A DNA stretch of 29,057 nt from a virus. This document shows positions 4,690 through 18,404 of this stretch, one piece after another. The notes beneath the pieces are model-generated. The model saw only the letters and a program-made list of their open reading frames with translations. It ran no database searches and was not told where the DNA came from. Position numbers and translations under genes: made by a program. Every line of letters begins with the position of its first letter. Position 1 is the stretch's first letter. The DNA is taken from IMG/VR virus record IMGVR_UViG_3300025759_000487, positions 1 through 29,057 of that record; one strand, 5' to 3'.

Positions 4690-4718
4690 TTGACAAAAGT
4701 TAATAATACTGATATAAT
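4690..4718 (+). promoter_or_regulatory. Exact sigma70 consensus promoter overlapping the acyltransferase start
   Basis: TTGACA at 4690-4695, a 17-base spacer, then TATAAT at 4713-4718: every consensus base with the ideal spacing. The -35 box includes the TTG start codon of the acyltransferase. Transcription would begin near 4725, inside that gene, so this promoter would serve the genes from 5153 onward rather than the acyltransferase itself. A short inverted repeat TAGGAA/TTCCTA (4737-4750) lies just after the predicted RNA start. Confidence 0.65.
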
Positions 4719-5151
4719 AGACGTAGTACGATTATATAGGAATTTTCCTAAATATAATTATCTATCCGATAAGGATATAGCTAGAGCAATTATTCCTTCT
4801 TTAGCATTAAATCAATATAATATATTTAGGTATAAAAATACTGGTGTTGCTTATGCATTTACTAACTGGGCATTTTTAAATACTGAAACTGAAAAACGTT
4901 TTAAAGAAACAGGTATTTTGGAAATGTTAGATTGGAATAGTGGAGATATTTGTTGGCATATTGAAACTATTAATACTGATAAAAATAAATTAAAAGAAAT
5001 ATATAGGTGGACAGCAGAAAGATTAAGTAAAGATATAGGTAAAGATAAAACTGTATATTGGTTAAGAATGAATAAATCTGGAAGAGGAATAAAAAGAATA
5101 AATAAAATAACAGTATTAAAAGGAATAAATAAATTTATTAAAGGTAATTAA
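4690..5151 (+). CDS. HlyC-like toxin-activating lysine acyltransferase (GNAT-type fold)
   Basis: 153 residues. The stretch from about 31 to 92 lines up with E. coli HlyC as I remember it: IIPSLALNQY with LPAIQANQY, GVAYAFTNWAFL with PVAYCSWANL, and LDWNSGDICWHIE with EDWTSGDRKWFID. HlyC-family enzymes move a fatty acyl group from acyl carrier protein to internal lysines of RTX toxins. The HlyC catalytic His23 and Asp92 correspond here to Tyr22 and Glu92. The only His in the protein is His90, two residues before Glu92. The only usable start is TTG at 4690, because TAA lies at 4684-4686 and no ATG occurs for 70 codons. Homology reaches almost to the N-terminus, which supports that start. No ribosome binding site is visible. 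One base separates it from the Lys-rich protein at 5153, a likely substrate (inference). Confidence 0.75.
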   Translation: MTKVNNTDIIDVVRLYRNFPKYNYLSDKDIARAIIPSLALNQYNIFRYKNTGVAYAFTNWAFLNTETEKRFKETGILEMLDWNSGDICWHIETINTDKNKLKEIYRWTAERLSKDIGKDKTVYWLRMNKSGRGIKRINKITVLKGINKFIKGN

Positions 5152-6619: not shown

Positions 6620-6861
6620 TGGCTTTATCTAAAGCACAACAAAGTTTAAAGAAGTGGGGTGAACAAAGATGGAGAACAAAATCAGGTAAACCTTCTTCTA
6701 AAACTGGTGAAAGATATTTACCAGAAAAAGCAATCAAAGCTTTAACAGCTTCTGAATATGCAAGAACATCTGCAGCTAAAAGAAAAGGTAAGGCAGCAGG
6801 TAAACAATTTGTAAAACAACCAAAGGGTATAGCAAACAAAGTAAGAAAGTATAGAACGTAA
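6619..6861 (+). CDS. DUF5872-like small basic protein
   Basis: 80 residues, highly basic. The pattern SLKKWGEQRWRTKSGKPSSK, then TGERYLPEKAIKALTASEYA and KRKGKAAGKQFVKQPKGIA, matches what I recall of the DUF5872 family, found in phages, large viruses and bacteria, with no established function. The Lys/Arg richness with spaced Trp suggests nucleic-acid or protein-surface binding. It starts in a TAATG overlap and its last base is the first base of the next ATG. Confidence 0.7.
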   Translation: MALSKAQQSLKKWGEQRWRTKSGKPSSKTGERYLPEKAIKALTASEYARTSAAKRKGKAAGKQFVKQPKGIANKVRKYRT

Positions 6862-7427
6862 TGGCTGAAAAAATACAAAAAAATCAATTTGATGAAGTAG
6901 GTGTTAATCCTTTTAATTCTCCTATTCCTGGAGAAGCTTTAACTTCATCTCCAGATAATCCTAAAGCATGGGAAAGACCACCTGAATATACAGATGAAGA
7001 TGCAGCTATGAAAGCTGTATACTTAGAATTAACTAATTTATCTACACTTAGAGAGTTAGTAAAAATTATTGACCAAGGTATTGCTTTAGATGAAATAGCA
7101 CAAGTTATTTTATATAAAGGATATACTGAAGGTAAATTTTCACCTGACATGATGTTAATGTTAGCAGAGCCTACTATTTATTTATTAATTGCTATTGCTG
7201 ATTATGCAGATATAAAAGATTATGTTTTATATGAAGGCGAAGAAGATGACCCTGATGCACAAATTCCTGATGATGATATAACTCCAATTAATATGGATGA
7301 AGAAGAAACAGTTGAAACTAAAATAACTGAACCTACTGAAGAAGTATTAGGAGAAGGATTATTATCAAGAGTTAAAAAAGAATTACCTTCTAAAATAAAA
7401 GAAGCAACAAAAGAAGTAGAGGAATAA
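6861..7427 (+). CDS. Acidic virion-associated protein
   Basis: 188 residues. The N-terminus (FNSPIPGEALTSSPDNPKAW followed by ERPPEYTDEDAAM) resembles the start of a structural protein I remember from T4-like marine phages, where the phrase is IPGQSLT...W(E)xPP. A helical middle follows (45-120), then a very acidic stretch (EGEEDDPDAQIPDDDITPIN, about 126-145) and a charged C-terminus. Its acidity contrasts with the three basic proteins encoded just before it, with which it may pair (inference). The following gene starts 1 base after its stop. Confidence 0.55.
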   Translation: MAEKIQKNQFDEVGVNPFNSPIPGEALTSSPDNPKAWERPPEYTDEDAAMKAVYLELTNLSTLRELVKIIDQGIALDEIAQVILYKGYTEGKFSPDMMLMLAEPTIYLLIAIADYADIKDYVLYEGEEDDPDAQIPDDDITPINMDEEETVETKITEPTEEVLGEGLLSRVKKELPSKIKEATKEVEE

Positions 7428-7428
7428 G

Positions 7429-9180
7429 ATGGGATTATTAACAGACTTAGGAAATGTTGTAACAGGTGCTATTGAAAGAGATAGAGAGTTAACTAACGCA
7501 GCATTAGAAGATAGAAAAGAACAATTAAAAGCTAATAGAGATGCTATTCTTTCAATGAAACAGAACAGATATGAATCTGAAATAAAAGCTTTTGATGAAG
7601 AGAATAAAAAATATAAAGCTATTAAAGCTGTTAATGACCAATTTGATGGACAAGAAATTACTCCAAGTCAATGGGGTCAAGCTTATCTTAAAGCTACAGA
7701 TTCTACAACTTATAATAATTTAATTAAAACTTATGAAGGTGATACCGAAGGATTAAACAAAGCATTCTCTACTTATTATACACCGAAACTTACAGAGTTT
7801 AAATTAAGTACTACTAGAGATGCTATAGATACTAAAACTCAAGAAGAAATTCAAAAGATTAATAGTGAATATGGTGATAAAATTAAAAATGCTAGAGGTG
7901 ATAGTTTCTTAATTGCACAATTATTAGGAGATAAAAATAAAAAAATTAATAAAATAGAAAAAGAAGCTACTGAAGATTCAAAAGGTATTGAAGTTGCAAA
8001 AGAAGTTAGTAATGAATCAATAGATAATAAACCAAACTTTACTGTAAAAGAAGAAGAGTTTGAGATTACTGTACCTAAAAGATGGATTGAAGATTCAGGT
8101 TTAATTCAACTTAGAAAAGAAGTTAAAAAAGATTTAGGTAATACTAAAAAAGAAGCAGCTAATACTACATTAGAAGTTTTAGAAAAATTAAATATTTCAG
8201 TACCTAAACAATATTTAACATATGAACAAGGTAGAACAGATGCACCTGTTACTGGATTTAAAGGTAACGGTAAAAGATTAAATGACCAAATTGGATTATT
8301 AACTAATCAATCATTTAACTTTCAAAATGATTTATATTTGTATATTAAATCAAATAAGAAAGCTAGTTCAGTACCAAATGTTTATAGTACTGCTGATAAC
8401 AAAAATATAATTACAAGTAGAATAGATGAATATACTGGAACAAATTCTATTATGCAAAATAAGAAAACTATATTTGCAGATAGAGAAAATTTTATTAGTT
8501 TAGTTCCTTTTTCTGTTGTAGGTTTAGATGATATATATAAATCATCAGATGGAAAAAATGCATATAGTTTTGCAAATGCAGATAAAAAAGCTGTTGGAGA
8601 AGCTTATTTTAAAGCTGTAAAAAATATAGTTAATAAAGCAGACCCTGAATTTAAATTATCTACTGAAGCTGATGCTATGAATAGTTTACAAGAAAGATTA
8701 CTAAAGCTTAATGATGATAGTACGAATCCATTAGTTATTAAAGTTAAAACTGAAATGGAAAAAATTTTAAATATACAAACTGAAAAACCTGGTAAAGTTA
8801 GTGATACTAATATAAATAAAGGAAATGTTAATGCTGTTGTAGTAAATGGTCAAACAATACCATTAACAGAAAATAATAAAAAATATTTAGATAGTATAAA
8901 CTTTGATTATGGTTCAGCAGAAAAAGTAATAGCACCACAGTCTACTGTAAAACAAGAAGGAGGTGATGGCAGTGTTGCTGAACAAACATTAGGAGTTAAT
9001 CAAGATGTTATAAATAGAAGTAAAAAAATTGAACCATCTGAAACGGGAGATACTACATTTACAAATTTAGAATCAGTATTAAAAGTATTACCAAGACCAA
9101 TGACTGGGCAAGAAATAAAAGATACATATCAAATTGATTTTCCTATTAATGTAAAATCAAGATATAGTCCATTAAAATAA
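7429..9180 (+). CDS. Coiled-coil internal virion protein candidate
   Basis: 583 residues. The N-terminal third is highly charged helix (ERDRELTNAALEDRKEQLKA, about 16-35, and on to about 180), consistent with a coiled coil. The middle (200-460) is mixed alpha/beta without a motif I can name. The C-terminus ends PINVKSRYSPLK. Large helical proteins immediately before a giant protein of more than 1000 residues are the usual arrangement of podovirus internal (ejection) proteins, comparable in position to T7 gp15 before gp16. Placement supports the role; sequence alone does not. Confidence 0.55.
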   Translation: MGLLTDLGNVVTGAIERDRELTNAALEDRKEQLKANRDAILSMKQNRYESEIKAFDEENKKYKAIKAVNDQFDGQEITPSQWGQAYLKATDSTTYNNLIKTYEGDTEGLNKAFSTYYTPKLTEFKLSTTRDAIDTKTQEEIQKINSEYGDKIKNARGDSFLIAQLLGDKNKKINKIEKEATEDSKGIEVAKEVSNESIDNKPNFTVKEEEFEITVPKRWIEDSGLIQLRKEVKKDLGNTKKEAANTTLEVLEKLNISVPKQYLTYEQGRTDAPVTGFKGNGKRLNDQIGLLTNQSFNFQNDLYLYIKSNKKASSVPNVYSTADNKNIITSRIDEYTGTNSIMQNKKTIFADRENFISLVPFSVVGLDDIYKSSDGKNAYSFANADKKAVGEAYFKAVKNIVNKADPEFKLSTEADAMNSLQERLLKLNDDSTNPLVIKVKTEMEKILNIQTEKPGKVSDTNINKGNVNAVVVNGQTIPLTENNKKYLDSINFDYGSAEKVIAPQSTVKQEGGDGSVAEQTLGVNQDVINRSKKIEPSETGDTTFTNLESVLKVLPRPMTGQEIKDTYQIDFPINVKSRYSPLK

Positions 9181-9189
9181 GAACTATGT

Positions 9190-12100
9190 ATGGCAGAACA
9201 AATTCAAATAGACTTTTCAAAGTTAGAGGGTGTAACTCCTGTTGCACCTATTGAAGAAAAACAAACTACAATTCCTGTAGAACCAGAAACTAAAGAATCC
9301 GTTATAGACTTTTCAAAACTAGAAGGTGTTACTCCTGCAAAGGAAGAATCTATTATAGATTTTTCAAAACTAGAAGGTGTAACTCCTGTTGAATCTACTA
9401 CAATAACTCCTACAAAAACACAAGAATATACTACAGCTCAAAAAATTAGATATGGTATAGATAAACAAAATACTTTTTTTGGAAATCTATATCGTGTTGC
9501 TAAAGCTGGTACTCAAGCTGCATTTGACCCAGATAAAGATTTTGAAGATTATATAAAATATAATTTCAATAAAGAACAAAGAGATTTAAAACAACGATAT
9601 GGTGACTTAGCTTCAGGTGCATATGATGATGATACAATTGTACAAGCAGCATCTATGGCTACTTTTTTAGTTGACCCATTTTATATTGCTGCTTATATGA
9701 CACCTTGGGGAAGAGCAGCTTCTGCTTCTTATAAAGGTATTTCAGCTATATCTGGTGTTACTGTTGGATTAGATACTATGTTAGAAAATTTAGCTACAAC
9801 AGGTAAAATTAATCCTACTGAAGTTGGTATATCAGCAGCTAGTGCAGCAGCACTTGGACCATTAACTGTTAAAGCATTTAGAGGTATAACACAACTATTA
9901 CCTAATGCTAAAGCACAAGATATACAAAAAATTATTGGTGTAATTGAAGGACAAAAAGCTAAACAATTAGGAATAACAAATGCTGAGTTTAAAAAACTAC
10001 AAGCTATTGCAGGAGATAAAGATGTATTAGAAATAAATAAACAATTAAATCTTGCTAATAAAAATTTTATTAAACCTATTGCTAGAGAAACTAAATTATT
10101 TAATTTAAAAGAAAAGAAACTTCAAACACAAATTGAAAGTTTAACTACTAAGTTAAAAGATTTTAAAGATGTTAAATTTTTTAATACTGTTAAAGAACAA
10201 ACAACAAATAATTTAGAAAAATTATTAAAGAAAAAAACAAAAACATTAGCAGATGAAACTAAAATATTTAATCAAAAACAAAAAATACTTTGGAACGACA
10301 TATCTAAAAATTCAAAACAGGTTACAGATTTATTAGCTAAAAGAGATTATTTATATTTAAAGAAAATAAAAGAACAGCAAAGTTTAACAAGAAATGTAGC
10401 TGAAGCTGTTATATCTGCATCTGTTAGACCTGCATTAGGAGCAGGTACTGGTTATGCCTTTGGTAGATTATGGGGTGGAGAAGATGCAAATTTAAATAAT
10501 TGGATGATGGTTGGAGCTAGTCTTGGTGGATTAAATAAATTAATTCAAAGAAGTGGAACAGTATTTGCTACAGGTGAAAAAAATTTATTAGAAGGTATTA
10601 TATATAATAATGCAACTAGACATATATTTCAAAAAGCTAGAGAGTTAACTGCAACAACAACAATTACTAAATTAAAAGCATTTGGTGGTGGTGCAGAAAA
10701 AATAGGTACAAAATTATTTCAAGAAATAGATTCACCTTTAAGTAAATTTTCTTCAGCAGCAATATCTGATAATTTAAAACAACAATATTCATTAAAGATA
10801 AGTAATATAATAAAAGGTACTACTCCTGAACAACAAGATGCAGCTATAAGAATTGTAAGAGGTTCTAAAGAAAAAGCTACACCACAAATAAAAGAATTAG
10901 CAAATAAGATAGAAGATTTTTTAAAACAATTTAAAGATGAATATAATAATGTTGGTATAGGATTAAGAAAAGATATACAAAAAAATGGGAAAACTGTTAA
11001 TGTTAGAATAGATGATATTAAAGATTATTTTCCTAGAGTATGGAATTGGGATGTTGTAAAACAAGACCCAGATAAATTTAAAAAAATTATAAGTGGTATT
11101 TTTAAAACACAAGGACATAAAGACCCTCAAGCTAAAGCTGAATCTTTTTATTCTACATTAGAAACTTCAAATGAAAAAGGTTTCTATGATAAAAAAGCTA
11201 TAACAGAATTAGTAAATAATTTAATAGGTAAATCTAAAGATACATTTAATAAACCTATTATTAGGGGATTACCTTTAAGTGACCACATAACTCAAGATAG
11301 GGTTTTATCTGGTCCTTATGCTCAAGTAGAAAAAATATTAGAAAAGAATGGATATTTAGTTAATGATGTTCAAGCAGTATTAAATAAATTAGTTACAACA
11401 TCATCTGACTCAATTGCTTTTGCAAAAAACTTTGGAGCAAAAGGAGAATTATTAGCTCCATACTTAACTGAAATTGTAGAAAAATATGCAGGTAATCCTA
11501 ATGCAACAGCTTATGCATCTCATGAGATAGGATTAGTAATGAAAAATATAGATGCTTTTCTTGGTAGATATGGTGAAGTTAGAAAAGGTATTGTTAGAAC
11601 AGGCACAGGAATATTATCTACTATATCTAATTTAAATATGTTGGATAGAGTTACTATTGCATCACTTGGGGATTTAGTACAGCCATTTCAAAACTCTACA
11701 AATTTTAGAAGTTGGATACAAGGATTAGCAAGAACAACAATTAGAGAAAAGAAACAGTTTGGTCTTGCAGAAAAAATGGGATTTGCTCAAAGTAAAGAGG
11801 CTGAACAATCTTTATTTAAAACTCTTACTCCTTTAGATGATGCTACAAATGCAGCTAAAGTAATGGGAAGTTCAGGATTAACTAGAAAGACAAATGAATT
11901 AGGTTTTAAACTTATGGGTCTTCAATGGTTAACTGGATTTGCTAGAAGATATGCATATAATACTGGAGCAGTTGATGCTTTTACAAGTGCTAAAAAATTA
12001 GCTACTTATGTTGGTAGAGGTAATAGTTTAAATAGTTCTAAAGGAATAAGATTAGTTAATGATGTTTCTAAGTATGGTATTAATACTAGTAATGCGTTAA

Positions 12101-13794
12101 GATTAGGTAAGTTTAAAAACTTTGATGATGCTATTTCGAAAAAATTTGGAAGAGAATTATTAAATGATGCAGGTATACTTGCTTCAAACAGAGATGCATT
12201 AATACCTCAAGTATCAAATAGATTATTATTTACACAATCAAGAGACCCACTTATTAGATTGTTAGGACAGTTTATGTCATGGACATTAGCTAAATCTGCA
12301 CAAACAAATAAAGTATTACAAAGAATAGAAAATGGTGATGTTAAACAATTAGTTAAATTATTAGCAGGATTACCTGTTTATGGTGGAATACAATCATTAA
12401 GAGAAATTGCTAAGTATGGAGAAATTCAAACTGATTTAGAAACACAAACTGACAAATGGTATTCAGAAGCTTTAAGATTATCAGGTATGTCTGGTACTGC
12501 TCCAGAATTATTTGTTGGTAGATTAAGTGGACCAGGTGCAAGAGAACCTTGGTTTTTATTTGCACCATTTTTTAGTATATTAACTGATGCAGGAGATGTT
12601 GCTAAACAAACATATAAAGGTAATACTGATAAAGCAACTCAAATATTTTTGGAAAGAATTGCTCCACTTCCTACATGGAGAAAATGGATTGGTAAATTAT
12701 TTCCTGATTATGATATTGCTACTACTGTTCCAAAATCTAGATTAGATGAATTTAGAGAAAATTTTAATATAGGAGGAGCAGTTGGAAAGGGAATAGCAAA
12801 AGCTATTAGTAAATCTACATCTAAAGCTGCATCAAAAACAACAGCTAAAGGTGCAGCAGAAAGTATAATAAAAAATACAGATGAAGTTTTAGATAAAAAT
12901 ATATCTAAATCATTATTAGATGAAGTTAATCCAGGAGATACTGCAATTACTAGTACATTAGGTACATATAAAAAAGTAGATAATTTATTAACAGATTTAA
13001 ATAAAAATACTGTTCATGATTTTGGTGCTGGAATTGGAATTGGTACTAGAATGTTTAAGAATAAAAATGTTACAAGTCATGAACCATTTGTTCCAATTGA
13101 AAAAATATTAAAATCTAAAATAAATTTTCAAGGAGAATTATTTAAAGGTAGAATACCAGATTATAAAAAATTTGATGATGTATTAGTTAAAGAAGGTATT
13201 GGTTCTAAAGATGCTGTTGTTAATTTAAATGTATTAAATGTAATAGGAAATAAAAAAGAAAGAGCTAATGTTGTTAAACAAATAGCACAATTAATTAAAG
13301 ATGATGGTGTTGCTGTTATAACAACAAGAGGAGATGAGGTTGCTAAAGCTGCTAAAACTTCTAAGAATGCAGTTAAATTTGAGGATGGTTGGATATTTGG
13401 AGACAAAAAGAAAACATTTCAAAAAGGATTTAGTCAAAAAGAATTAGAAAAATATATTAAAGATATATTAGGTGATAATTTTACAGTAAAAAAATTACCT
13501 AATAAATATAAAGTATCATCATCTGGTGTTATTATTACAAAGAATAAACCTAAGTTTAAAGATGGTGATGAAGTAATTGTACCACCTCAGAAACCATATA
13601 ATAGTATAACAGCTTATGTTAAAAGAATAAGAAGCTATGTTAAAGCAGGTACAATTAAAAAAGATTATGCTGAAGATTTAATTAAACAGAAGCTAAAAGA
13701 AGAAGGAAAAACTATGGCTGATATTGACACCAGTAAATTTGTTAAAGGTGGTGAAGATATAGGCGAAAAAGTACCCTATACCAAGGGTGACTAA
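9190..13794 (+). CDS. Giant ejection-type protein with C-terminal methyltransferase-like domain
   Basis: 1534 residues. Residues 7-66 hold three copies of IDFSKLEGVTP in a flexible linker. About 105-235 is a folded region with hydrophobic segments (AASMATFLVDPFYIAAYMTP). About 245-395 is Lys/Glu-rich coiled coil. About 400-1180 includes TISNLNMLDRVTIASLGDLV and LQWLTGFARRYAYNTGAVDA, motifs I associate with very large phage internal proteins injected with the DNA. About 1265-1450 looks like a class I SAM-dependent methyltransferase: motif I HDFGAGIGIGTRMF, the acidic end of strand 2 in SHEP, then NLNVLNVIGNKKERANV and GVAVITTRG. A charged tail follows. Fusion of an enzyme domain to an injected protein fits the polyvalent-protein concept. 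Exact function unknown. Confidence 0.65.
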   Translation: MAEQIQIDFSKLEGVTPVAPIEEKQTTIPVEPETKESVIDFSKLEGVTPAKEESIIDFSKLEGVTPVESTTITPTKTQEYTTAQKIRYGIDKQNTFFGNLYRVAKAGTQAAFDPDKDFEDYIKYNFNKEQRDLKQRYGDLASGAYDDDTIVQAASMATFLVDPFYIAAYMTPWGRAASASYKGISAISGVTVGLDTMLENLATTGKINPTEVGISAASAAALGPLTVKAFRGITQLLPNAKAQDIQKIIGVIEGQKAKQLGITNAEFKKLQAIAGDKDVLEINKQLNLANKNFIKPIARETKLFNLKEKKLQTQIESLTTKLKDFKDVKFFNTVKEQTTNNLEKLLKKKTKTLADETKIFNQKQKILWNDISKNSKQVTDLLAKRDYLYLKKIKEQQSLTRNVAEAVISASVRPALGAGTGYAFGRLWGGEDANLNNWMMVGASLGGLNKLIQRSGTVFATGEKNLLEGIIYNNATRHIFQKARELTATTTITKLKAFGGGAEKIGTKLFQEIDSPLSKFSSAAISDNLKQQYSLKISNIIKGTTPEQQDAAIRIVRGSKEKATPQIKELANKIEDFLKQFKDEYNNVGIGLRKDIQKNGKTVNVRIDDIKDYFPRVWNWDVVKQDPDKFKKIISGIFKTQGHKDPQAKAESFYSTLETSNEKGFYDKKAITELVNNLIGKSKDTFNKPIIRGLPLSDHITQDRVLSGPYAQVEKILEKNGYLVNDVQAVLNKLVTTSSDSIAFAKNFGAKGELLAPYLTEIVEKYAGNPNATAYASHEIGLVMKNIDAFLGRYGEVRKGIVRTGTGILSTISNLNMLDRVTIASLGDLVQPFQNSTNFRSWIQGLARTTIREKKQFGLAEKMGFAQSKEAEQSLFKTLTPLDDATNAAKVMGSSGLTRKTNELGFKLMGLQWLTGFARRYAYNTGAVDAFTSAKKLATYVGRGNSLNSSKGIRLVNDVSKYGINTSNALRLGKFKNFDDAISKKFGRELLNDAGILASNRDALIPQVSNRLLFTQSRDPLIRLLGQFMSWTLAKSAQTNKVLQRIENGDVKQLVKLLAGLPVYGGIQSLREIAKYGEIQTDLETQTDKWYSEALRLSGMSGTAPELFVGRLSGPGAREPWFLFAPFFSILTDAGDVAKQTYKGNTDKATQIFLERIAPLPTWRKWIGKLFPDYDIATTVPKSRLDEFRENFNIGGAVGKGIAKAISKSTSKAASKTTAKGAAESIIKNTDEVLDKNISKSLLDEVNPGDTAITSTLGTYKKVDNLLTDLNKNTVHDFGAGIGIGTRMFKNKNVTSHEPFVPIEKILKSKINFQGELFKGRIPDYKKFDDVLVKEGIGSKDAVVNLNVLNVIGNKKERANVVKQIAQLIKDDGVAVITTRGDEVAKAAKTSKNAVKFEDGWIFGDKKKTFQKGFSQKELEKYIKDILGDNFTVKKLPNKYKVSSSGVIITKNKPKFKDGDEVIVPPQKPYNSITAYVKRIRSYVKAGTIKKDYAEDLIKQKLKEEGKTMADIDTSKFVKGGEDIGEKVPYTKGD
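9208..9387 (+). repeat. Three copies of an 11-residue motif (33-bp repeat units)
   Basis: The coding units for IDFSKLEGVTP lie at 9208-9240, 9304-9336 and 9355-9387, separated by Pro/Glu/Thr-rich linkers. The protein copies are identical while the codons differ at several third positions, so the peptide is under selection. It looks like a short linear binding motif repeated for avidity, or a scaffold or cleavage recognition site. Confidence 0.75.
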
Positions 13795-13887: not shown

Positions 13888-14304
13888 ATGACTATATTAA
13901 ACTTTGACCCATTTAAAAATTATTCTATCGGATTTGATAGAATGTTTAATAGTTTAAATGAGGTATCTAGAATAAACACTTCTAACTTTCCTCCATACAA
14001 TATAAGAAAAATTGGTGGATGTGATACAGATTGGCAAATAGAAATCGCATTAGCTGGTTTCTCTAAATCTGATATTGACATTGAGGTGCAAGATAGTATA
14101 CTTACCATTACAGCTAAGAAAGATGATAAGTTAAAAGATGATTTAATTCATCAAGGTATTGCATCAAGAAATGTAGTTAGAAAATTTACTTTGTCTGAAT
14201 ACATCAAAGTAGATTCGGCTGATTTCAAAGATGGTGTTCTTACTATAAAAGTATATGAAGAATTACCTGAAGAGAAAAAAGCTAAAACAATAAAAATAAA
14301 ATAA
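13888..14304 (+). CDS. hsp20: Small heat-shock protein, Hsp20/IbpA type
   Basis: 138 residues, close in layout to bacterial IbpA. The N-terminal arm (1-30) has MTILNFDPFKNYSIGFDRMF. The alpha-crystallin domain (about 35-125) shows WQIEIALAGFSKSDIDIEV, DSILTITAKK, HQGIASRNVVRKFTLSEYIK and the conserved GVL motif in FKDGVLTIKV. The C-terminus carries an I-x-I anchor (TIKIK). Such proteins hold unfolding proteins for refolding by DnaK or ClpB. Marine phages often carry one. Ribosome binding site AAAGGA lies 8 bases before ATG. It is the first gene after an exact consensus promoter and is bracketed by hairpins, suggesting abundant late expression and a role in virion assembly or protein quality control during infection (inference). 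Confidence 0.93.
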   Translation: MTILNFDPFKNYSIGFDRMFNSLNEVSRINTSNFPPYNIRKIGGCDTDWQIEIALAGFSKSDIDIEVQDSILTITAKKDDKLKDDLIHQGIASRNVVRKFTLSEYIKVDSADFKDGVLTIKVYEELPEEKKAKTIKIK

Positions 14305-14347: not shown

Positions 14348-14785
14348 ATGACACCAAGAAGTAAAACAGATATGATTGTTATTCATTGTTCAGCAACACC
14401 TGCTGATATGGATATTGGAGTAGAAAAAATTAAACATTGGCATGTTGTAGAAAATGGATGGGATGACATAGGCTATCACTATGTTATTAAAAGAGATGGT
14501 ACTTTAGAAGTCGGTAGAGAAGAACATAGAACAGGCTCTCATGCTAGAGCAGTTAATGGTACATCAATAGGAATTTGTATGATAGGTGGTTCTAATAAGG
14601 AGGGTGATTGGGAAAATAATTTTTTACCTGAGCAGTTTGATACATTGAAACAAATATTAGAAACACTAAAAGATAAATACGATATTAAAAAAATAATAGG
14701 ACACTATGAAGTAGATGATAAAAAGAAATGTCCTTCATTTAATGTAAAGGAGTGGTTAGACAACAATGGGATTTCCAATACTTAG
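14348..14785 (+). CDS. N-acetylmuramoyl-L-alanine amidase, T7 lysozyme-like endolysin
   Basis: 145 residues, about the length of T7 lysozyme (gp3.5), with the same order of motifs: MIVIHCSATPADMDIGV, WDDIGYHYVIKRDGTLEVGR, GSHARAVNGTSIGICMIGG and HYEVDDKKKCPSF. Zinc ligands expected from T7 lysozyme are His13, His119 and Cys128; catalytic Tyr43 and Lys126 are also present. It cuts the amide bond between MurNAc and L-Ala of the cell wall peptide. T7 lysozyme also inhibits T7 RNA polymerase, but no such polymerase is visible here, so lysis is the likely role. No ribosome binding site precedes the ATG. Translation may depend on a short upstream frame in the hairpin at 14314-14340. The holin gene overlaps its last 20 bases. 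Confidence 0.93.
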   Translation: MTPRSKTDMIVIHCSATPADMDIGVEKIKHWHVVENGWDDIGYHYVIKRDGTLEVGREEHRTGSHARAVNGTSIGICMIGGSNKEGDWENNFLPEQFDTLKQILETLKDKYDIKKIIGHYEVDDKKKCPSFNVKEWLDNNGISNT

Positions 14786-17876: not shown

Positions 17877-18033
17877 TCTTCTTCTCCTTCTTGTGTGAAA
17901 AGACTTCATACCATGTATCACATTCATCACAGTTATACATACTAACTATATCGTGTTCTGAATCTGGATAAGTATCTTCAGTATCATAATCTTCGTTCCA
18001 TCTTACTTCAGCATTACAATAAAAACATTTCAT
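17854..18033 (-). CDS. Zinc-ribbon protein
   Basis: 59 residues starting MKCFYCNAEVRWNEDYDTED, with a second Cys pair in SMYNCDECDTWYEVFSHKKE and a Lys/Glu-rich tail. Two CxxC knuckles (Cys 3 and 6, Cys 35 and 38) about 28 residues apart form a classic zinc ribbon, with an acidic loop between. Such mini-proteins recur in marine phages; a role in transcription or DNA binding is likely but unproven. The start overlaps the speD-like stop (TAATG). The ORF is short but well supported by coupling and the motif. Confidence 0.7.
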   Translation of the reverse strand: MKCFYCNAEVRWNEDYDTEDTYPDSEHDIVSMYNCDECDTWYEVFSHKKEKKNERKDNE

Positions 18034-18404
18034 TATTTTATTTCTTCAAAATTATTTTCTCTATCAAAATATTTATAATCAACTTGTACTGTTTCAAACT
18101 CTTCTAAACATTCTAATATATCAGACTTCTTAAAATCTTTACATGAGTATACATCAAGTTGTATTAAAGCAGGATTGTTTTCATCCCAAGTATGAATAAC
18201 AACATGCGATGTTTCTATAATAGCAACACCAGTTATACCTGCGTTACCTTTCTTAGTAACTTTAGTTGCATAAGGACCTGCAAGTATTTTCATATCTATT
18301 TTTTTAATTAAATTCTTTAACCAAAAAATAATATGTTCTTCTGATGCAGGTGGTTTATTTACTTCTGCTCTAATAAGTAAATGTTTATGCTTGACGTTTT
18401 CCAT
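18033..18404 (-). CDS. speD: S-adenosylmethionine decarboxylase-like protein (SpeD family)
   Basis: 123 residues, about the size of bacterial or archaeal SpeD. The family makes decarboxylated SAM for spermidine synthesis, by self-cleavage before a Ser that becomes pyruvoyl. Matching parts are KKGNAGITGVAIIETSHVVI then HTWDENNPALIQLDVYSCKD: the SH..IH core with Ser66, His67 and His71, and Cys88 in place of the catalytic Cys. The usual ESH is here ETSH, so the residue before Ser66 is Thr65 rather than Glu. SpeD relatives with changed substrate (ornithine or arginine decarboxylases) are known, so the exact reaction is uncertain. It lies after polymerase and exonuclease genes and is coupled to the zinc-ribbon gene. 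Likely modifies host polyamines. Confidence 0.8.
   Translation of the reverse strand: MENVKHKHLLIRAEVNKPPASEEHIIFWLKNLIKKIDMKILAGPYATKVTKKGNAGITGVAIIETSHVVIHTWDENNPALIQLDVYSCKDFKKSDILECLEEFETVQVDYKYFDRENNFEEIK

Follow-up and report, generated by a model that had tools for sequence, protein, structure and literature searches.

The window analysed here is the IMG/VR virus record IMGVR_UViG_3300025759_000487, a fragment of 29,057 bases. An open reading frame on its forward strand (9190..13794) encodes a 1,534 amino acid ejection-type (internal virion-like) protein which bears a methyltransferase domain towards its C-terminus. The nearest annotated relatives of this protein, gp54 of HTVC104P (49% identity over 93%) and gp52 of HTVC103P (46% identity over 95%), both from cultured pelagiphages, are labelled 'hypothetical proteins', while gp40 of HTVC115P is a more remote relative, in which the methyltransferase part of the 1,534 amino acid protein finds no match. 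Immediately 3′ of the ejection-type gene lies a gene for an Hsp20-type small heat-shock protein (13888-14304, + strand), also found in HTVC103P, HTVC104P and HTVC115P, which is possibly a chaperone for the ejection-type protein, and a nearby Amidase_2 endolysin gene (14348-14785) probably serves lysis. A family A DNA polymerase, a primase-helicase and an AdoMet decarboxylase (18033-18404, - strand; PF02675; e-value: 4e-15) are encoded on the opposite strand. The last of these is annotated in HTVC104P too, and through it the phage would use up SAM, the cofactor that its virion methyltransferase would require. The gene order around the ejection-type reading frame matches that of HTVC104P, and the window can thus be assigned to the HTVC103P type, which has a structural module related to the HMO-2011 module (PMC8528129).

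An additional gene within the structural module (4690-5151, + strand) codes for a 153 amino acid homologue of the RTX-toxin-activating acyltransferase HlyC (PF02794; e-value: 2.6e-15; phrog_20210; e-value: 4.9e-11). It is flanked by reading frames of 703 and 401 amino acids, the counterparts of which are adjacent in HTVC104P, with no HlyC homologue between them. Its product might acylate a virion protein. The phage itself is probably marine, with SAR11 bacteria as its hosts. Pelagiphages are among the commonest marine viruses, and to our knowledge little is known of how SAR11 bacteria defend themselves.

The core of the ejection-type protein (residues 80-1200; 9427..12789, + strand) matches the 'virion structural protein' family phrog_6958 (e-value: 4.3e-9), as do 18 of 39 relatives, and in one relative there is a match to phrog_342, 'internal virion protein with endolysin domain' (e-value: 3.8e-9). 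The core can therefore be placed in a virion structural family. Its AlphaFold2 model is of low confidence (pLDDT 60; pTM 0.40) and largely, in fact nearly all, helical; with this model no PDB match was found at an e-value of 0.001 or below, and the core shows no sequence match to gp16 of T7. The hydrolase modules found at the end of the protein in relatives fit an envelope-crossing protein and, reasoning from these features together, we suggest that the 1,534 amino acid protein is probably present in the virion and injected.

A preliminary description of this DNA had proposed a class I SAM-methyltransferase domain at about residues 1265-1450, on the strength of the motifs DFGAGIGIG, SHEP, NLNVLNVI and GVAVITTR. 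All four motifs occur at the positions it gave, and the domain does lie there, its limits being slightly wider than proposed (residues 1249-1453; 12934..13548, + strand, as are the other features of this protein given below). Motif I, the SAM-binding loop DFGAGIGIG (residues 1277-1285; 13018..13044), is conserved in the family. SHEP (residues 1296-1299; 13075..13086) forms the acidic end of strand 2, the expected ligand of the SAM ribose, NLNVLNVI (residues 1345-1352; 13222..13245) ends strand 4 in the motif IV position, and ITTR (13318..13329), within GVAVITTR before residue 1381, ends strand 5 and includes R132 in domain numbering. Further downstream a QKG motif (13420..13428), set in TFQKGF and common to TIGR04096 proteins, is a candidate substrate-site signature.

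Structure prediction of residues 1249-1453 from a 59-sequence alignment yielded an AlphaFold2 model (pLDDT 95.4; pTM 0.91) with the Rossmann-like alternating alpha/beta fold of class I SAM methyltransferases, in which a motif I of the D/ExGxGxG form (DFGAGIGIG) and a strand-2 acidic residue (E50) are in place. Foldseek retrieved 658 PDB chains with this model at an e-value of 0.001 or below, and VIA-align superposed it on 2p8j with a Z of 15.8 (rmsd 3.7; 180 residues). By sequence, solved structures gave weak matches to generic methyltransferases (best e-value: 0.007). The class I assignment thus withstood structure prediction, and a chance motif match is ruled out by the model and the depth of the family. 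Among solved structures, those nearest to the model are tRNA, sugar and glycine methyltransferases, tied at Z 14.7-15.8 (METTL6: 15.3; Trm9: 15.2; TylM1 and glycine N-methyltransferase: 14.9) and, as these tie, the fold names no substrate.

The SAM pocket has likewise been retained. D29, G33, L101, N102, R110, G125, R132 and Q163 (domain numbering) are invariant in about 110 relatives. In motif I, D29 and G33 are present in 109/109 sequences and G31 in 108/109, while the strand-2 acid E50 is kept in 109/110. L101, N102 and V103 are invariant at the end of strand 4, where N97 occurs in 106/110 and N99 in 100/110 sequences; R132, at the end of strand 5, is found in 110/110, and the residues of the QKG motif in 110/110 (Q163), 109/110 (K164) and 108/110 (G165). 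With so little variation at its residues, the pocket is not degenerate, and the proposal held at this point too. The domain is furthermore under purifying selection and its sequence is kept, pairwise dN/dS values being about 0.2-0.7, rough figures as synonymous sites are partly saturated in AT-rich DNA. To judge from the model, the domain is apparently an intact class I SAM-dependent methyltransferase, which would be expected to be enzymatically active. Catalysis is not readable from the sequence where motif IV takes the unusual form NLNVLNV, and this form would suit a catalytically dead or SAM-sensing decoy, which would bind SAM or some host factor but transfer no methyl group. A precedent is the inactive methylase domain of the defence protein DndH, for which a dominant-negative action has been proposed (PMC10853773). 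However, in about 110 sequences the QKG motif, R132, motif I and the acid of strand 2 are all nearly invariant, and the domain is under purifying selection, which makes a decoy very improbable; an active enzyme is the preferred reading. With the family signature (DFGxG, NLNVLNV, ITTRG and QKGF), this enzyme can be picked out among many records labelled 'hypothetical protein'.

The sole notable Pfam match of the domain is Methyltransf_23 (PF13489), which on the C-terminus alone reached 22.7 bits (e-value: 9e-5) against a gathering cut-off of 27. The domain shares the fold, motif I and the strand-2 acid with this family but belongs to a distinct, phage-centred one. Its nearest named relatives are, as far as sequence comparison indicates, the DNA-phosphorothioation-associated putative methyltransferases of NCBIfam TIGR04096 (dnd_rel_methyl). 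In hmmscan the domain matched positions 71-152 of the 478 of this profile (e-value: 1.2e-8) with 34.2 bits against a cut-off of 150, and 42 of the 59 members of the phage domain family matched the model. The hhalign comparison of the phage profile with a true TIGR04096 member, which is located in a Dnd island adjoining DndA and a phosphorothioate-DNA restriction enzyme, gave an e-value of 2.9e-11 over 116 columns with 35% identity. The alignment spans motif I to TFQK..EL, with TFQKGF aligned to TFQKFF, so that the kinship extends across the catalytic domain. The surroundings of an archaeal homologue include a type IIG-like methylase and a gene that is a candidate for defence. With this context and the TIGR04096 kinship, the phage family is a short cousin of a DNA-modification-island methyltransferase. 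PADLOC returned no match for the domain, and no dnd genes were found among the subset of reading frames scanned in the window, itself a fragmentary record.

The motif [DNSH]PP[YFW] is absent after strand 4, its place being taken by NLNVLNV, which is conserved across the phage family, and the domain is therefore not a standard DNA amino-methylase (N6A/N4C). A DNA adenine methylase of the DarB type is ruled out, as NPP[YF], LPD36 and helicase are all lacking. Modification of the incoming DNA, which the preliminary description had put forward as an example, is as such one option only among several, the signature of a DNA amino-methylase being absent. This absence, together with the presence of the tRNA methyltransferases Trm9 and METTL6 among the best solved structural neighbours, could be taken to indicate an injected RNA methyltransferase that modifies host tRNA, for example against anticodon nucleases or to retune translation, instead of DNA. 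Sugar and glycine methyltransferases, however, tie with these neighbours (Z 14.7-15.8), so that the fold is no guide to the substrate. Moreover, those sequence relatives that have a name lie in DNA-modification islands, and in one relative (L088) a SAP domain stands N-terminal to the enzyme. We regard action on tRNA as unlikely and favour a target connected with host defence, as set out below. The L088 protein (6777-11450) is a 1,558 amino acid phage protein, its SAP domain being recognised as PF02037; SAP domains as a rule bind DNA.

The domain is set in a C-terminal region of the ejection-type protein where relatives diverge abruptly, beyond residue ~1200. It is preceded by a linker (12763..12933) which opens with FNIGGAVGKGIAKAISKS and represents a recurrent module junction; in relatives an FN[IV]GG-type linker precedes the methyltransferase or its empty site. 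It is followed by a tail of 81 residues (13549..13791), consisting of an FKDGDEVIVPP linker and ~66 amino acids, in which Pfam finds no match; no cell-wall hydrolase is recognised in the window copy. The same tail is found in L007, L011 and L025, while in L001 and L048 a glucosaminidase takes its place behind the same FKDGDEVIVPP linker. The module junctions lie at the short recurrent linkers FN[IV]GG.. and FKDGDEVIVPPKKP (12763-12800 and 13555-13590 in the window). Recurrent linkers of this tail bay also occur in L001, L007, L011 and L048, and in L001, with a core 78% identical to that of the window, the two linkers follow each other directly. These linkers may represent recombination joints or protease sites. 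The last ~66 residues (13549-13794 in the window; 9402-9645 in L011) are identical in protein between the window and L011, the sequences upstream being ~38-43% identical, which on sequence grounds indicates a recent transfer of the tail.

A cell-wall hydrolase of varying fold is usually present in the tail bay, the payloads including a glucosaminidase (PF01832), a tail lysozyme (PF18013), a GH24-type lysozyme (PF00959) and a pesticin-type hydrolase (PF16754), as well as some without an assigned type. Pesticin-type payloads are carried on the same ejection-type protein in L131 (667-1560) and L148 (1312-2130). A different and unrelated kind of payload is observed in remoter, HTVC115P-like proteins (L015, L164 and L170), which have long glycine/asparagine-rich C-terminal tails ending in KSGGLLDKKRG or KKGGLLDKNRG. 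The methyltransferase is located before the hydrolase in HTVC104P and L052, after it in L006, L030 and L046, and occurs without a recognised hydrolase in the window, L007 and L011. In L026, L034 and L045 it is encoded in a separate frame directly downstream, and covalent delivery is therefore not obligatory. The same fusion is present in related phages, among them HTVC103P and HTVC104P, both pelagiphages in culture. As it recurs in these two and in many independent contigs, an assembly artefact is unlikely.

About one third of the core relatives carry the methyltransferase. Among 67 distinct, complete C-termini, counted at loci found by the core alone, the domain is fused in 19, encoded by the next gene in three and missing from 45. 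On a core tree of 72 tips its presence requires 18 changes, as compared to a mean of 21.3 when shuffled, and at least 15 of these changes are forced by well-supported branches. Cores that share only 52-57% identity carry methyltransferases 97-99% identical to each other; conversely, methyltransferases just 44% identical occur on two cores that do not differ over the stretch compared. The plain reading is that the methyltransferase is a cassette undergoing repeated horizontal exchange, gained and lost almost freely among relatives. The preliminary description mentions neither this cassette in a bay shared with cell-wall hydrolases nor the kinship with Dnd-associated methyltransferases. The frequent loss of the enzyme indicates that many hosts can be infected without it. 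Near strain-level gain and loss of a virion-borne enzyme points to a variable host target.

Relatives of the domain are encoded by 227 viral contigs, while only two contigs with relatives were found in 84,980 prokaryote species genomes and none by tblastn against 72,556 plasmids. A recent pick-up of a bacterial gene is unsupported, as the genome scan gave these two relatives only. Phages unrelated to the phage type of the window also carry the domain. In the Roseobacter phages CRP-3 and CRP-738 it forms part of long proteins encoded between the portal and coat genes, that of CRP-3 also containing an N-terminal cell-wall hydrolase (PF07486), and in the Mycobacterium phage Myrna it occurs in a long protein immediately before the major head gene. 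In L064 and MJing1 it is a stand-alone gene amid terminase, portal and head genes. These stand-alone versions, and the position of the gene within the structural module, would accord with a late or assembly role, in which the domain methylates a virion protein or an envelope component in the producing cell and the fusion merely serves procapsid placement. Against such a role, the domain is repeatedly paired with cell-wall hydrolases, which serve entry, and its near-random gain and loss would be less expected of a conserved step in assembly than of an interaction in which the hosts vary; we consider it improbable.

We suggest, at roughly even odds, that the methyltransferase is an exchangeable cargo of the internal virion protein of HTVC103P-type pelagiphages, delivered with the DNA and probably serving counter-defence. 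The core would be packaged in the head and, like gp16 of T7, would enter the envelope and cytoplasm before or with the DNA, while a hydrolase in the same protein or elsewhere would breach the peptidoglycan. Against this reading, the window copy has no recognisable hydrolase in its 1,534 amino acid protein. The methyltransferase would then draw on the SAM of the host at time zero and methylate a target on which the progress of the infection depends. We infer virion presence, injection, enzymatic activity and such a substrate from the features above, and infer counter-defence as the purpose in particular, which is favoured by how often the enzyme is exchanged and by its kinship with Dnd-associated methyltransferases; the target class would most likely be nucleic acid. 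A more specific and rather doubtful version has the tail bay as a hot-swap payload bay and the injected enzyme as a phage-adapted, Dnd-associated-type methyltransferase, which would modify incoming DNA, or phosphorothioated or otherwise marked DNA, in a way chemically distinct from N6A, N4C and C5 methylation and so block a SAR11 defence before phage expression. The almost free swapping of the cassette suggests that the enzyme is a weapon which a phage may or may not carry and which would be delivered as infection begins. It also suggests that ejection proteins can deliver enzymes beyond cell-wall hydrolases. Identification of the enzyme's substrate would reveal a SAR11 defence, and a solved function would illuminate the role of TIGR04096 proteins in Dnd islands. 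In the open-licence literature, no report was found of an ejection protein with a methyltransferase domain, nor any description of the present family of methyltransferases, of its being fused to an ejection-type protein of a podovirus, or of its behaviour as a cassette.

Compared with TIGR04096 proteins, the phage domain shares the DYGCG/DFGAG loop, VVNLxxVLNVIEDPxER and the DG...TFQK...EL block with equal spacing. It differs in its length of ~200 amino acids against 478 model positions, and thus lacks the flanking domains, and in being carried on a virion-type protein and not in a Dnd operon. With podovirus ejection proteins the 1,534 amino acid protein has in common that it is large, mainly helical, late and virion-structural by PHROG, and most of its relatives carry hydrolases. 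Ejection proteins are known to exchange domains, and gp16 of T7 combines a cell-wall hydrolase with a part presumed to enter the cytoplasm (PMC8954989). In gp16, however, the transglycosylase is N-terminal, whereas here the enzymes are C-terminal and one is non-hydrolytic; the term methyltransferase is absent from this review of ejection proteins (PMC8954989).

The preliminary description had also invoked polyvalent proteins. In passages of Iyer et al. 2017 (PMC5512222), these are described as large, head-delivered proteins in which unrelated enzymes, methylases included, are joined, and which are proposed to act at the start of infection. Head-delivered multi-enzyme proteins are thus already known, as is an injected DNA methylase, the head-borne DarB of P1, which guards P1 DNA (PMC5512222). 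The narrow parallel fails, as the polyvalent methylase described there belongs to the DNA adenine N6 class, has NPP[YF] and is joined to both LPD36 and an SNF2 helicase, whereas the protein of the window has none of these features. Neither LPD36 nor the SNF2 helicase has a Pfam match in the 1,534 amino acid protein, and the phage methyltransferase family is not named in those passages (PMC5512222). In the window copy the methyltransferase is the sole recognised enzyme. The wide sense of the term, one long protein joining unrelated enzymes, does apply among its relatives, namely in HTVC104P, L030, L052 and CRP-3.
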